This document shows positions 42,902 to 47,888 of a DNA stretch of 54,602 nt, one piece after another (position 1 is the first letter of the stretch; each line of letters starts with the position of its first letter). Below the pieces are notes generated by a model that saw only the letters and a list, made by a program, of their open reading frames with translations, was not told the DNA's origin and did no database searches. Source of the DNA: Acidobacteriota bacterium (GTDB lineage Bacteria > Acidobacteriota > Terriglobia > Terriglobales > Acidobacteriaceae); the NCBI GenBank assembly GCA_028872955.1, contig JAGWNX010000013.1, forward strand, positions 1 through 54,602, written 5' to 3'. The translations under genes and the position numbers were made by a program.

Positions 42902-43978
42902 ATGGTCAAGCCGCTTCGCAGTGACGATCCCACCCCGCAGAGCATGCAGTTTTCCCATTTTGGCGTGCTCAATGATGGCAGTCAGAGCAAGGCCTCACTG
43001 TTCACCTCCATCACGGTCAACATCCTCATCGCATTCGTGGTGGTGGTGATTGGCGCTGCGGCCAAGCACACCATCGATCGCAGCAAAAAGCTCACCTCTG
43101 TCTCGCTGGAGCCGATGAAGAAGCCCGAGCCTGAAGTGAAGCCGCTGAAGCCCAAGGTGCTGCCCAAGCTGCCCCCGGTCGCCAAGGTGGAGCCGCCCAA
43201 GATCAAGCTGCCCGATGTCAAGCTCCCCGACCTGCCCAAGCCGCCTGAGGTCAAGATGACCCAGCCGATGCCGGTGATTGCGCCTGCGCCGCCCAAGCTG
43301 GTCCAGGCTCCTCCGGCACCTAAGGTCGTTAGCCTCGCCCAGGCGCAGCCCGCCTCGGTGATGAACAACAATCATCCGGCCGCTGTCAGCCTCGGCCAGG
43401 CCAATAACCCCATCGCCCCGTCGAACCGGCCCTCCACCACGGCAGTCAACCTGGGCAATCGCGGTATGGCGGGTATGCCGGCCTCCAACAACGGCATGGG
43501 CGCCCGCGCCGTAAGCCTGGGCTCCGGCTCGCCCAGCAGCCAGAACATGGCTGCCACCGGCCCGCGCGCGGTCCAGGGAGTCAAGCTCGGCGTTACCGGC
43601 GGCACTGGTCCGCTTAACTCCACCGGCCGCGTCGCTGGCCCGGTGAACCTCGGCCAGAACATTCAGCCGGCTATGCCCCATCCGACTGCGGTCTCTGCAA
43701 CGGCTCGCAGCGCTCCCAAGGTTCTGTACAAGCCGCGGCCTGAGTACACCGCTGAAGCCACCCGTCTGCATATTGAGGGCGTGGTCTCGGTTCGCATCCA
43801 CGTCACCGCAACCGGTGCCGTCCAGGTGCTCGGCGTTACCAGCGACCTCGGTTATGGTCTAGGCCAGTCCGCCATCCGCGCCGTCTCCGGAACACGGTTT
43901 GCCCCGGCTACCGACGCCACCGGACGACCCACGGACTGGGAGGGTGTCGTCAACGTCGCCTTCCAGCTGGCCAGCTAG
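42902..43978 (+). CDS. TonB-like energy transducer
   Basis: TonB proteins transmit proton-motive energy to outer-membrane receptors. The 358-residue product has a cytoplasmic start, one membrane segment at about residues 38-58 (ITVNILIAFVVVVIGAAA), and a long Pro/Lys-rich spacer with KPEPEVKPLKPKVLP. A second spacer is rich in Ser, Asn and Gly with recurring AVSLGQ/AVNLG units. The C-terminal TonB domain begins VLYKPRPEYTAEATRLHIEG and ends VVNVAFQLAS. A CAAGGA site lies 9 nt before the ATG. No exbB or exbD is adjacent. It sits 103 bp before the M48-like gene, both facing the barrels downstream. Confidence 0.88.
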   Translation: MVKPLRSDDPTPQSMQFSHFGVLNDGSQSKASLFTSITVNILIAFVVVVIGAAAKHTIDRSKKLTSVSLEPMKKPEPEVKPLKPKVLPKLPPVAKVEPPKIKLPDVKLPDLPKPPEVKMTQPMPVIAPAPPKLVQAPPAPKVVSLAQAQPASVMNNNHPAAVSLGQANNPIAPSNRPSTTAVNLGNRGMAGMPASNNGMGARAVSLGSGSPSSQNMAATGPRAVQGVKLGVTGGTGPLNSTGRVAGPVNLGQNIQPAMPHPTAVSATARSAPKVLYKPRPEYTAEATRLHIEGVVSVRIHVTATGAVQVLGVTSDLGYGLGQSAIRAVSGTRFAPATDATGRPTDWEGVVNVAFQLAS

Positions 43979-44081: not shown

Positions 44082-45944
44082 ATGAACTTTCGGAAACAGT
44101 CCGCAGCCGGAATCCTCCTGGCATCGCTCGTCGCCACCTCGCTCCACGCTGCTATCAAGCTGCCGCACGTGGGCAAGCGGAAGCCTGAAGACGATATGCC
44201 AATCCGGAAGCTTACCCCCGGCCAGAGCGCGCTGATCGACAAGGCCATCGCCCGGGAGAAAGTGGTCGTCGCCACGGTCAAGGAGCGTGCTCCGCTCGTC
44301 GAGACCTACATCCAGAACATGCGTCCGGACCCCGTGCTCGGCCAGGTTCCCGAATCGGATCAGCACTTCCTGGGCCGCGTCCGCTTCAACAAGATCATCG
44401 GCGACGTGCCGTACGAAGAGAACAAGGACACCACCGAAGGCACGAAGAAGAGCGGCAAGTTCAGCTTTCTGCATCACGCCCCGACCTTCCTGACCAATCT
44501 GGGTGGCGGACTGCGCCTGACCTTCCACGAGGCCGGCTTCGTCCAGATGCTGCTGATGGACTCGACCAGCTTCGATCGGCAGACCTACAACTTCAACTTC
44601 GTCCGCAACGAGTTTCTGGGCAACACCCCGACCGCTGTCTTTGACGTGACCCCGGCCGGGCAGAAGGGCCTGCTGAAGGACAAGACCTACGGTCGCTTCT
44701 TCGGCCGCATCTGGGTTGAGACCCGCAATGGCAATGTCGTCCGCTTCAACGGCGACTTCGCCGGCGGCATCGAGAACCAGCGCGAGTTCTACCACTTTGA
44801 CAGCTGGCGTACCAACGTCCAGCCCGATCTGTGGCTGCCCACCTCCTTCTACGTGGAGGAGAGCGATCCGAAGAGTGTGAGCCGTACGCTCAAGTTCAAG
44901 TCCATCAACCACATCTGGGGCTATGTGCTGAAGGTTCCGGCCAAGGAGAGCGAGAACACCTCGCTGGACGTGGTGGGGGCAACGGACGTCAGCAACGACG
45001 CGCAGGACGTAAGTCCGCTGGGTGCACAGCGCGCCTGGGTGCAGCAGGCTGAGGACAACGTCATCGAGCGGCTCTTCCAGGCCGGTCTGATCGACGCACC
45101 GAGCGAGTTTGACAAGACGCTTGAGGCGCTGGCTGGCAACATTCTGGCCTACAACAACATCACGCTGTCGCGGCCCATCCGCGTGCGTACGCTGCTGACC
45201 GAGCCGCTGGAGTCCGTGGCAGTCGGCAACACCATCCTCGTCTCCAAGAGCCTGCTGGACACCACCGCCGTGGTAACCCAGGATGGAGCCCAGCAGATGG
45301 GTAATCTGAACGCCATTCTGGCCTTCCAGATCGCTCACATCATCCTGGCCCACCGGTTGGACACCAAGTACGCCTTCAACGACCGTCTGCTCTTCCCCTC
45401 CAACGACGTCTACGATCGCATTCCGATGCATCACACCGATGCCGACAACGCCGCAGCTGCCAAGAAGGCGATGGAGCTGCTCAGCGCCAAGGAACTGGCC
45501 GATGGCCAGCAGTACTTTGGCCTGTACCTGCAGCAGCTGCAGACTCGGGTCAAGTCGCTGCATGCGCTGACTGCCCCGATGATCGGCGACGGCCTGACCA
45601 AGAGCGACACGGACCAGACCTTCTGGCTGGCCGAGATGATGAACAAGGGTCTGAAGCTCGAAGAGAAGAATCTGAAGCAGCAGGCTGCCATGCCGCTCTC
45701 CAGCTTCCTGCGCTTTGATCCCTGGACCGATCAGCTGTTCACCATGCACTCGGCGTATGAACCGCTGTTGTCGGCCGCGGACAAGATGCCGTTCGAGGTG
45801 GAGCCGGTCTACCTGAAGCTCAGCTACTACAAGGCACCCGCCGATGCAGCTCAGGCAGCTCCGGCACCGGCGGCAAACGCTGCCCCTGCCGATGCCAACG
45901 CCGCACCTGCACCTGCTGCAGCGCAGCCCGCGCCGCAAAACTAG
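44082..45944 (+). CDS. Exported protein with LolA-like N-half and degenerate M48 peptidase-like C-half
   Basis: The 620-residue product has a signal peptide ending near SLHA. Residues about 60-290 contain strand-rich segments such as GRFFGRIWVETRNGNVVRF, reminiscent of LolA-type lipoprotein-binding folds; this is weak. Residues about 330-500 resemble an M48 metalloprotease: SVAVGNTILVSKSLLD, then ILAFQIAHIILAHRLD where M48 enzymes have HExxH. Here the first His is Phe415 and the catalytic Glu is Gln416; only His419 remains. The third-ligand site (E-x-x-A-D) reads HTDAD, with His451 for Glu. The tail is an Ala/Pro-rich stretch of about 40 residues. AGGAG lies 8 nt before the ATG. I infer a non-proteolytic envelope role. 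Confidence 0.75.
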   Translation: MNFRKQSAAGILLASLVATSLHAAIKLPHVGKRKPEDDMPIRKLTPGQSALIDKAIAREKVVVATVKERAPLVETYIQNMRPDPVLGQVPESDQHFLGRVRFNKIIGDVPYEENKDTTEGTKKSGKFSFLHHAPTFLTNLGGGLRLTFHEAGFVQMLLMDSTSFDRQTYNFNFVRNEFLGNTPTAVFDVTPAGQKGLLKDKTYGRFFGRIWVETRNGNVVRFNGDFAGGIENQREFYHFDSWRTNVQPDLWLPTSFYVEESDPKSVSRTLKFKSINHIWGYVLKVPAKESENTSLDVVGATDVSNDAQDVSPLGAQRAWVQQAEDNVIERLFQAGLIDAPSEFDKTLEALAGNILAYNNITLSRPIRVRTLLTEPLESVAVGNTILVSKSLLDTTAVVTQDGAQQMGNLNAILAFQIAHIILAHRLDTKYAFNDRLLFPSNDVYDRIPMHHTDADNAAAAKKAMELLSAKELADGQQYFGLYLQQLQTRVKSLHALTAPMIGDGLTKSDTDQTFWLAEMMNKGLKLEEKNLKQQAAMPLSSFLRFDPWTDQLFTMHSAYEPLLSAADKMPFEVEPVYLKLSYYKAPADAAQAAPAPAANAAPADANAAPAPAAAQPAPQN

Positions 45945-46045: not shown

Positions 46046-46582
46046 TTGAATCGGCGAATCTATCCAGGCCTGCTCTTGTGCCTCCTGCTGTTCTCGATCC
46101 ATGCGTTCGGCCAGGCGACTGCTACCGCATCCCGACTGGGCGCGCTGCAGCTCGGAGTAGGCGCAACCCGCGTCTATACCGACTACACGCCGCAGAAGGC
46201 AGGCGGCATCACGGCATACGGTGACCTCGACTTCCGCCCGCACTGGGGCATTGATGGGGAGATACACCTGGGCAGTCTGATCACGCCGGGCCACGTGGGG
46301 GAAGACACCTATCTGCTGGGCCTGCGCTACGTCGGCCACCGCGGACGCTTTGACCCCTACCTGCGCCTGATGGGAGGCATCGGTCGGCTGAACCTGAACC
46401 TGACCAACAACACAGGCTCCTACACCTACAAGGTGGGTGCCTTCGCTGGTGGTGTGGATATCCATATCACGCGCAGCATCAATGTGCGTGCGTTTGACTT
46501 TGAAGCCCAGGCCTGGCCCGGCTACCTGAACGGCCTGTCGCCGTACGTGGTCACCTCGGGTGTCGCCTACTCGTTTCACTAG
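46046..46582 (+). CDS. Outer-membrane beta-barrel protein (tandem copy 1)
   Basis: The 178-residue product has a signal peptide (YPGLLLCLLLFSIHAFGQA) and then alternating strands of an 8-stranded OmpA/OmpX-like barrel: RLGALQLGVGATRVYTDYTP, ITAYGDLDFRPHWGIDGEIH, TYLLGLRYVGHRGRFDPYLR and a terminal YVVTSGVAYSFH ending in an aromatic-plus-His pattern. The start is a TTG preceded by GGAGGAG at 7 nt; the upstream open codons are polar and lack a signal. It is a clear paralogue of the next gene: both have the TASRLG block, DY(T/S)PQ and RPHWG. Confidence 0.82.
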   Translation: MNRRIYPGLLLCLLLFSIHAFGQATATASRLGALQLGVGATRVYTDYTPQKAGGITAYGDLDFRPHWGIDGEIHLGSLITPGHVGEDTYLLGLRYVGHRGRFDPYLRLMGGIGRLNLNLTNNTGSYTYKVGAFAGGVDIHITRSINVRAFDFEAQAWPGYLNGLSPYVVTSGVAYSFH

Positions 46583-46671: not shown

Positions 46672-47196
46672 GTGTTCAAGCGTTTGTTTCTTCTCATCGG
46701 CCTGTGCTCCGCGACCGCGGCAGCCCACGGGCAGGCACTTCCTACCGCGAGCCGGCTTGGTGATCTGAGTCTGGGCGCCGGTTATACCACCGTCAACTCA
46801 GACTACTCGCCGCAGCGGTACACGGGCTTCGGCATCTACGGCGACTTCAACTATCGCCCGCACTGGGGAGCAGAGGCAGAGTTCCGCTTTGCGAGCGACC
46901 ACCAGAGCAGCCAGTTCTACGAGAAGACCTACGAGCTGGGGCCGCGCTACTACCTCGTCCACGGCCGCTACACGCCCTATGCCAAAGCCATGTATGGCCG
47001 CGGCGTCTTCAACTTCTACCAGGGCCAGGCGAACCTGGCCTACAACATGCTTGTTGGCGGTGCCGGGCTGGACTACCGCATCATGCCCTGGCTCAGTGTT
47101 CGGGGCGACTTTGAGTATCAGCACTGGTTCGGATTTCCGCCCAATGGCCTGACCCCGACCACGCTCACCTTCGGCGCAGCCTACCACTTCCGCTAG
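46672..47196 (+). CDS. Outer-membrane beta-barrel protein (tandem copy 2)
   Basis: The 174-residue product has a short signal peptide (FLLIGLCSATAAAHGQA) and barrel strands such as SRLGDLSLGAGYTTVNSDYS, GIYGDFNYRPHWGAEAEF, TYELGPRYYLVHGRYTPYAK and the last strand TLTFGAAYHFR. It starts with GTG preceded by GGGAG at 6 nt. Length, motif order and the RPHWG/DYSPQ blocks match the preceding gene, so the two arose by tandem duplication. They have diverged strongly elsewhere. A bidirectional terminator follows. Such small barrels can act as adhesins or sensors, but the role here is unknown. Confidence 0.85.
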   Translation: MFKRLFLLIGLCSATAAAHGQALPTASRLGDLSLGAGYTTVNSDYSPQRYTGFGIYGDFNYRPHWGAEAEFRFASDHQSSQFYEKTYELGPRYYLVHGRYTPYAKAMYGRGVFNFYQGQANLAYNMLVGGAGLDYRIMPWLSVRGDFEYQHWFGFPPNGLTPTTLTFGAAYHFR

Positions 47197-47294: not shown

Positions 47295-47888
47295 CTAGAA
47301 GTGGTACGCCAGGCCGACTGCCGGCAACGAGATCACTTCCCACCGCTTGGTGTCAAAGTTGGTCAGGCCGTAGGCAGGTGCCTTGGTCAAAAACCCGCGA
47401 TACTCGACGCGCACGTCAAAGCTGGGGCTCAGCTCGTAAGCCACGCCGCCGCCGAAGATTCCCCCCAGCCCGAAGACCTGCTTGGTATCGAAGCTGGTGG
47501 ACGCGAAGTCACGAATCGGCGTGAAGACCAGCGCACCGGGACCAGCCTCAATAAACGGGTTGTAGCGGCGGAAGTTCAGGCCGTACACAAACGCGCCAGA
47601 GATCTCCTGCTGCCGCTGATGAATGTTACCGGACAGGAAGCTGGTGGTGTAGTACTGCTGATTCTGCAGGAAGGAGTAGTTCACCTCCAGCGCGCTGCGC
47701 GGGGTGAGCATATAGCGGTAGCTGGCCAGGAAGCCAAAGGTCTTTGACGTGTCCTGCGTAATCGCATTGCCGTGCACTTGAGGCGTAAAGATACCAATCC
47801 CGCTGACACTCACATCCTGACGGCTCTCTTGCGCGAATCCCGCAGCCGCTGAAAGTAGCAGCGCGCCCAACAACATCATCTTCTTCAT
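47295..47888 (-). CDS. Outer-membrane beta-barrel protein
   Basis: The 197-residue product has a signal peptide (MKKMMLLGALLLSAAAGFAQ) and an eight-stranded-barrel pattern with strands such as FGFLASYRYMLTPRSALEVN, SGAFVYGLNFRRYNPFIEAG, GGIFGGGVAYELSPSFDVRV and a terminal LPAVGLAYHF ending in Phe, the classic BAM signal. It is related in type but not closely in sequence to the two plus-strand barrels it converges with. A weak ribosome binding site (GAAGGG) lies before the ATG. Function unknown. Confidence 0.83.
   Translation of the reverse strand: MKKMMLLGALLLSAAAGFAQESRQDVSVSGIGIFTPQVHGNAITQDTSKTFGFLASYRYMLTPRSALEVNYSFLQNQQYYTTSFLSGNIHQRQQEISGAFVYGLNFRRYNPFIEAGPGALVFTPIRDFASTSFDTKQVFGLGGIFGGGVAYELSPSFDVRVEYRGFLTKAPAYGLTNFDTKRWEVISLPAVGLAYHF

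Follow-up and report, generated by a model that had tools for sequence, protein, structure and literature searches.

A TonB-linked LolA-M48 protein family of Acidobacteriota and a clade that has lost its zinc site

What is a peptidase domain for when its zinc site is gone? The question is raised by a gene in a stretch of 54,602 nucleotides from a soil bacterium of the Acidobacteriota (the whole stretch that was analyzed, called the window below). The initial annotation described its product as an exported protein with an M48-like C-terminal half and an N-terminal half that may resemble LolA, linked to genes for TonB and outer-membrane barrels. It also noted that the HExxH site is lost and argued from this against proteolysis, a view that the analysis supports. 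The gene is a single, intact open reading frame, AGGAG precedes its ATG, and the encoded protein of 620 amino acids is divided as follows.

44082–45944, + strand: LolA-M48 pseudopeptidase gene, 620 aa (open reading frame; conservation across 57 aligned proteins)
44082–44150, + strand: probable Sec signal peptide, residues 1–23 (by eye)
44214–44948, + strand: LolA-like half, residues 45–289 (VIA-align to 3buu, 4z48, 9tp6 and 3bk5)
45018–45761, + strand: M48-like half, residues about 313–560 (VIA-align to 6ait and 3c37; PF01435 matches of intact relatives)
45270–45293, + strand: 8-residue insertion 397–404 before the active-site helix (alignment)

An N-terminal signal of Sec type, recognized by eye, agrees with the proposed export, and the LolA-M48 protein is presumably delivered to the periplasm; when 60 family sequences, a few of them without the N-terminus, were checked over their first 40 residues, none showed a lipobox. 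Sequence searches with the window protein itself return little. At E values up to 10, Pfam gives no match, PF01435, LolA and TPR repeats included, and NCBIfam gives none either. Among solved structures, a sequence search finds one chance-level match (E 1.3), and the same search with a profile of 37 sequences finds none. A plasmid or mobile origin was considered and rejected, as none of 72,556 plasmid records gives a match; among phage families there is one weak match (E 0.14). In the window, no RNA family reaches its gathering score, a promoter scan finds none, and terminator-like sites number two versus 2.7 expected.

The full-length protein was also viewed as a structure model, the best AlphaFold model being of moderate quality (mean pLDDT 68.4, pTM 0.65) and the other four reaching pLDDT 52–55; residues 557–620 are modeled with low confidence, and the tail is rich in Ala and Pro. 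The top three structure matches cover residues 313–558 and are BepA (two entries) and the zinc-peptidase 3c37, with Z 13.6, 12.1 and 11.9. By VIA-align, 191 residues align with BepA 6ait_A (Z 13.6) and 180 with 3c37_B (Z 11.9). The C-terminal half is thus predicted to have the M48 (BepA-like) fold that had been proposed for it, with fold prediction named as the test. The suggested resemblance of the N-terminal half to LolA also finds backing in this moderate model. Residues 42–292 match 3buu_B of the LolA superfamily over 162 aligned residues with Z 9.3, somewhat above the Z 7–8 that the tool calls common, followed by 4z48 (DUF1329, Z 8.6), 9tp6 (LolA3, 8.6), 3bk5 (a lipoprotein-sorting domain, 8.2) and, at lower Z (5.4–6.1), the LolA-like sensors RseB and MucB. 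Most of these entries are also ranked by Foldseek on its own, with E 4e-4 to 5e-3. Because the other full-length models are poorer and the N-terminal half folded alone gives a poor model (pLDDT 54.4), the predicted LolA-like assignment is good but not firm.

A scan of one genome per species across 84,980 species, which reaches close relatives only, found 59 loci, 56 of them titled Acidobacteria; among the other three (L019, L024 and L058), two are titled Rhodanobacteraceae and Verrucomicrobia. The 57 proteins that were aligned are 55–83% identical to the window protein. A profile of these close relatives matched 92 of 396 genomes in a sample of the phylum, the weaker ones over the N-terminal half only, and also picked up relatives of full length from other Acidobacteriota families. 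Many of the full-length relatives read HELAH, HELGH or HELSH, followed by E-x-x-A-D. With a wider profile at E <= 1e-20, 225 of the 399 genomes searched in the class have the family, as do 56 of 396 in the phylum sample; beyond Acidobacteriota, the searches covered close relatives and plasmids. Against Pfam M48 (PF01435, cut-off 20.3), seven of ten relatives scanned score above the cut-off at 31.7–36.3 bits. Five of these seven have the full site, and L109 and L118 differ from it at one residue; three basal relatives without the site fall just under, at 17.9–20.1 bits. Because relatives keep HExxH and the Glu and pass Pfam M48, the LolA-M48 family descends from real M48 peptidases, and the window protein is a case of site loss inside a genuine M48 family that still has intact members. 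A profile of the 57-row alignment gives no alignment with a canonical M48 protein of the same genome, and a profile that includes intact relatives aligns with it over 36 columns (probability 72); the M48 assignment therefore rests on the intact relatives and the fold.

The searches also brought up neighboring protein types. Free-standing proteins of ~300 aa (L122:4765-5676, L123:3726-4607, L125:5301-6194 and others) match the N-terminal half at residues about 166–255 and form a separate LolA-like family that occurs in many of the sampled genomes of the phylum. Pfam LolA_like matches the three that were scanned, with scores under its cut-off. At L119:6560-8290 (- strand), an M48 half lies in one frame behind a stretch that by eye resembles polysaccharide chain-length proteins, a joining that is either a fusion or a frame artifact. 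The HELTH frame at L094:880-2589 (+ strand) scores 20.4 versus the M48 cut-off of 20.3 and by eye is M56-like, of BlaR1 type.

For comparison across the family, 230 sequences were reduced to 190 distinct full or near-full rows by dropping 13 partial matches and identical sequences; L255, L256 and L275, the second copies of genomes G630, G615 and G612, lie outside these rows. Sixty-four of the 190 rows are intact, having both HExxH and the Glu of the third ligand; the other 126 are without the full site (dead). A tree set, also of 126 rows, was made from the 190 by dropping rows 80% or more identical. The site itself reads as follows.

45324–45338, + strand: F415 Q416 I A H419, the former HExxH (sequence, alignment)
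45432–45434, + strand: H451, fixed in the dead clade (55/55 rows), not the third ligand (alignment)
45447–45449, + strand: N456, the third zinc ligand position (alignment with intact rows)

The motif FQIAH stands in the translated frame exactly at Phe415–His419, as annotated, and its reading as the HExxH position of an M48 domain holds by alignment with intact relatives, by fold and by the Pfam matches of relatives. The first His has become Phe415, the catalytic Glu Gln416 and the third-ligand Glu Asn456. His451, to which the initial annotation had assigned the third ligand, is the wrong residue and was rejected in that role, since the Glu of the E-x-x-A-D of intact relatives aligns with N456 (and the Asp with A460). 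Position 456 is Glu in all 52 intact rows of the tree, intact being defined by having that Glu. H451 is His in 55/55 rows of the window's clade and also in 17/52 intact rows, so by position it is no new ligand.

Conservation of the altered motif, which had been put forward as a check, is high. Across the 57 aligned sequences, F415, H419, H424, H451 and N456 do not vary; Q416 occurs in at least 90%, with Glu416 in three rows; FQ.AH is kept in the window's subgroup. In the 55 tree rows of the window's clade, the former His at position 415 is F in 46, M in 7, L in 1 and V in 1; the former Glu at 416 is Q in 43 and E in 12; the former Glu at 456 is N in 49 and D in 6; and the former Asp at 460 is A in 49. 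H419 and H424 are each found in 54 of these rows, and H424 also in 46 of 52 intact rows. To judge from these columns, the replacements are not random. The window protein shares the 8-residue insertion with its nearer kin, in some of which it is seven residues long; neither the intact rows nor the six basal dead rows shown in the alignment have it. An intact HExxH elsewhere in the protein, named beforehand as a possible refutation, was sought and rejected for the window protein, which contains none; any HExxH occurs in 5 of the 126 members without the full site, twice at the site itself with a changed third ligand and three times as HEY[FP]H in the N-terminal half.

How often the site was lost was read from a quick maximum-likelihood tree of the 126-row set, with the site columns removed, SH-aLRT support and a midpoint root; rows include near relatives, and row counts are not event counts. 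The clade of the window is dead in 55/55 rows, has an SH-aLRT support of 100 and is reached by a branch that measures 0.5 changes per column. Its sister group is intact in 7/8 rows, and the fork that joins the two has a support of 96. Over the whole tree, 14 state changes are needed, of which starred branches force at least 11. Another dead group has a support of 85 and takes in seven rows from two other families of the class; its loss of the site seems to have been separate. Its members (L111, L233, L236, L244, L247, L248 and L249) have the first His and the third Glu replaced and keep Glu416, with motifs such as GELAH, DELAH and MELAH, probably an independent loss. Several single losses elsewhere on the tree may be real or may be draft errors. 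We infer that the intact site is the ancestral state, because the HExxH motif is the hallmark of M48 and not because of the root.

An active copy in the window's genome, which would make the dead one a spare, was looked for and not found: the genome has one member of the family; its three other PF01435 matches lie outside the family, one of them barely over the cut-off. Among the 49 genomes with the dead type whose loci were read, no intact family copy stands beside a dead one, and the further copies in G630, G615 and G612 are also dead; the survey counted matches at E <= 1e-20, and the genomes searched may be incomplete. In sister genera, several genomes each encode two intact copies. Two such copies lie in tandem at L216:1435 and L216:4431, the first of them with no TonB match directly upstream.

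Selection was estimated by a Nei-Gojobori count over 95 pairs within the window's subgroup, pairs that are not independent. The M48 half has a median omega of 0.23 and the LolA half one of 0.36; around the site, over residues 400–465, the median is 0.16. In 90/95 pairs the M48 half lies below the LolA half. The dead M48 domain is thus under purifying selection and, having the lower omega, is the more constrained half.

Which partners might such a protein serve? Directly upstream lies a gene that recurs across the family.

42902–43978, + strand: TonB gene (PF03544), the conserved upstream partner, ending 103 bases before the LolA-M48 gene

With a profile grown from the window's own TonB, a same-strand TonB gene was found directly upstream in 178 of the 183 rows (out of 190) that have enough flank, that is, in 59/61 intact and 119/122 dead rows. 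The TonB neighbor that had been annotated is thus conserved, and the intact relatives have it too. Within the window's subgroup, several other neighbors are conserved as well, so the adjacency there is partly shared synteny, and the argument for a TonB link rests on the distant families. The window's genome contains nine TonB_C matches, which argues that adjacency in distant families is not chance. The 4.6 kb of L275, one of the further dead copies, contain no TonB.

In four loci from one other family of the phylum (L107, L109, L110 and L112), the order is TonB, LolA-M48, ExbB, ExbD, ExbD. ExbB was identified by Pfam in L107, L110 and L112 and ExbD twice by Pfam in L112, the rest by derived profiles; in the other loci searched, the ExbB and ExbD profiles have no match. 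Of the four LolA-M48 proteins, two have the intact site; in another the third ligand is Asp, and in the last the first His is replaced by Arg. In L112, a DUF1501 gene (L112:1615-3144, + strand) lies upstream of the TonB-M48-ExbBD genes. The window's genome encodes ExbB and ExbD on other contigs, not beside the LolA-M48 gene.

Downstream of the gene, the window carries small outer-membrane proteins.

46046–46582, + strand: outer-membrane beta-barrel gene (PF13505), with a probable TTG start behind GGAGG
46672–47196, + strand: second outer-membrane beta-barrel gene (PF13505)

These are small OMP_b-brl proteins of 178 and 174 aa as scanned. A third small barrel gene (47295–47888, - strand) matches PF13505 and, just below the cut-off, PagL. 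Over the 187 of 190 rows with enough flank, and with a profile built from the dead-clade neighbor cluster and hence sensitive for the dead clade by design, a barrel gene lies just downstream in 101/105 rows of the dead-clade type, in 1/63 intact rows and in 0/19 other dead rows; the single match in an intact row is weak and two genes away. The barrel link noted at the outset is thereby conserved within the dead-clade type, and the association reflects essentially one evolutionary event.

Parts of this arrangement have known counterparts. In predicted fold, residues 45–289 are like members of the LolA superfamily (LolA, NE2245, RseB/MucB and LprG; Z about 5–9), none of which, to our knowledge, has a fused M48 domain. 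The gene order recalls TonB-ExbB-ExbD systems, with a TonB_C gene directly upstream of the window gene and ExbB-ExbD-ExbD downstream in the four loci. We know of no M48/LolA gene as part of TonB-ExbB-ExbD operons, and a literature search on TonB/ExbB with LolA/M48 showed none in such operons among the matches listed, in titles and abstract starts. The C-terminal half resembles BepA, the E. coli periplasmic M48 peptidase and chaperone for LptD, in its predicted M48 fold and its envelope context. BepA, however, carries TPR repeats and no LolA half, whereas the window protein has the LolA-like half at its N-terminus instead, and BepA has no TonB link that we know of. The protease-dead variant BepA E137Q bears the same Glu-to-Gln change that the window's clade has by nature. 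This variant is reported to retain some of the activity in LptD maturation (PMC8423444); it is also reported to be dominant negative for vancomycin resistance (PMC7950410), so a dead M48 domain is not automatically a good chaperone. BepA itself keeps H136, E137, H140 and E201, unlike the window protein (PMC7950410). Metallopeptidase pseudoenzymes are like the dead clade in having lost ligands and the catalytic Glu while keeping the fold. By term search, the main text of a review of inactive metallopeptidases has no mention of M48, Ste24 or BepA (PMC11266112). Searches on Acidobacteria, Granulicella, TonB, LolA, M48 and pseudopeptidases returned no description of the LolA-M48 family among the matches listed (titles and abstract starts, with few subscription journals).

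What the analysis shows is M48 ancestry, a lost zinc site, conservation of the protein, selection on it and linkage of its gene to TonB. The explanation we prefer, which we judge evenly poised between right and wrong, is a periplasmic carrier or chaperone partner of a TonB system, BepA-like with its proteolysis lost. In the ancestor, a LolA-like domain for hydrophobic cargo and an M48 peptidase domain would have made up one enzyme working with an energy-transducing TonB (ExbB-ExbD) complex. In the window's clade, the zinc site was destroyed (H to F, E to Q and, at the third ligand, E to N). Fold, TonB partner and order of genes were retained, for which reason the present protein most likely works by binding. 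It may hold or carry an outer-membrane client (a barrel protein, a lipoprotein or a lipid) in the periplasm, comparable to the chaperone mode of BepA, with TonB providing contact with, or force on, the LolA-M48 protein. Loss of two ligands should remove zinc and might, speculatively, relieve the trapping seen with E137Q. Gene adjacency is not protein contact, and we infer the carrier or chaperone action, the contact with TonB and the part of the adjacent barrel as client or partner. A further-reaching idea, which we consider improbable, is an outer-membrane assembly or quality-control machine driven by the proton-motive force, in which TonB-ExbB-ExbD would act on the LolA-M48 protein rather than on a receptor, and from which Granulicella, Edaphobacter, Terriglobus and their kin would have dropped proteolysis, keeping the carrier or chaperone part and gaining the barrel gene.

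Other explanations share part of this evidence. The dead M48 half could belong to a regulatory pseudopeptidase that binds unfolded barrels or envelope peptides and signals stress like RseB, or controls another protease, and moves no cargo. RseB and MucB are indeed among the structural neighbors of the N-terminal half (Z 5.4–6.1), and regulation of active cousins and scaffolding appear as pseudoenzyme roles in the abstract of the review (PMC11266112). We find this doubtful, however, because the ten of 25 recurring neighbor clusters that were read by eye include no sigma or anti-sigma factor, the LysR-type regulator that recurs among the neighbors lies mostly on the opposite strand, and the partner common to distant families is TonB. 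That partner, upstream in 178/183 rows, would also suit an accessory of TonB, a structural adaptor docking it to the outer membrane or the neighboring barrel for nutrient uptake, with neither half handling envelope clients; the ExbB-ExbD-ExbD genes downstream in four loci and the barrel genes downstream in the dead clade point the same way. The window's barrels, however, are small OMP_b-brl proteins and not TonB-dependent receptors, and protease ancestry and a LolA fold would be odd for a mere adaptor, which makes this role unlikely in our estimate.

Two further explanations concern the site itself. The protein might still be a hydrolase, through a rearranged or metal-independent site made of H419, H424, H451 and in some members E416, and the retention of H419 (54/55), H424 (54/55), H451 (55/55) and E416 (12/55) in the dead clade could be read in this way. 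Yet H424 (46/52) and H451 (17/52) also occur in intact members and hence mark no new site, the first and third ligands are lost, and 121 of the 126 members without the full site have no HExxH anywhere; a surviving activity thus strikes us as very improbable. Decay of a gene no longer needed, with loss of the site as its symptom, could account for single losses that lie scattered over other parts of the tree, some of them in draft genomes. For the window's clade it is scarcely credible, given an omega of about 0.16–0.23 in the M48 half within the window's subgroup, open reading frames, and fixed F, Q and N replacements across the clade.

For assembly of the outer membrane, the periplasm offers no ready source of energy. 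If the carrier or chaperone reading is true, a dedicated periplasmic carrier or protease tied genetically to TonB, and to ExbB-ExbD in one family, would be a testable candidate for energized outer-membrane work, in a phylum, the Acidobacteriota, whose envelopes have been little studied. The sister groups, dead and intact, provide a natural experiment in which binding by the M48 domain can be told apart from cutting, a distinction that is a live question for BepA. As related bacteria keep only the dead form, the dead-only clade suggests that an envelope job continues there without cutting proteins.
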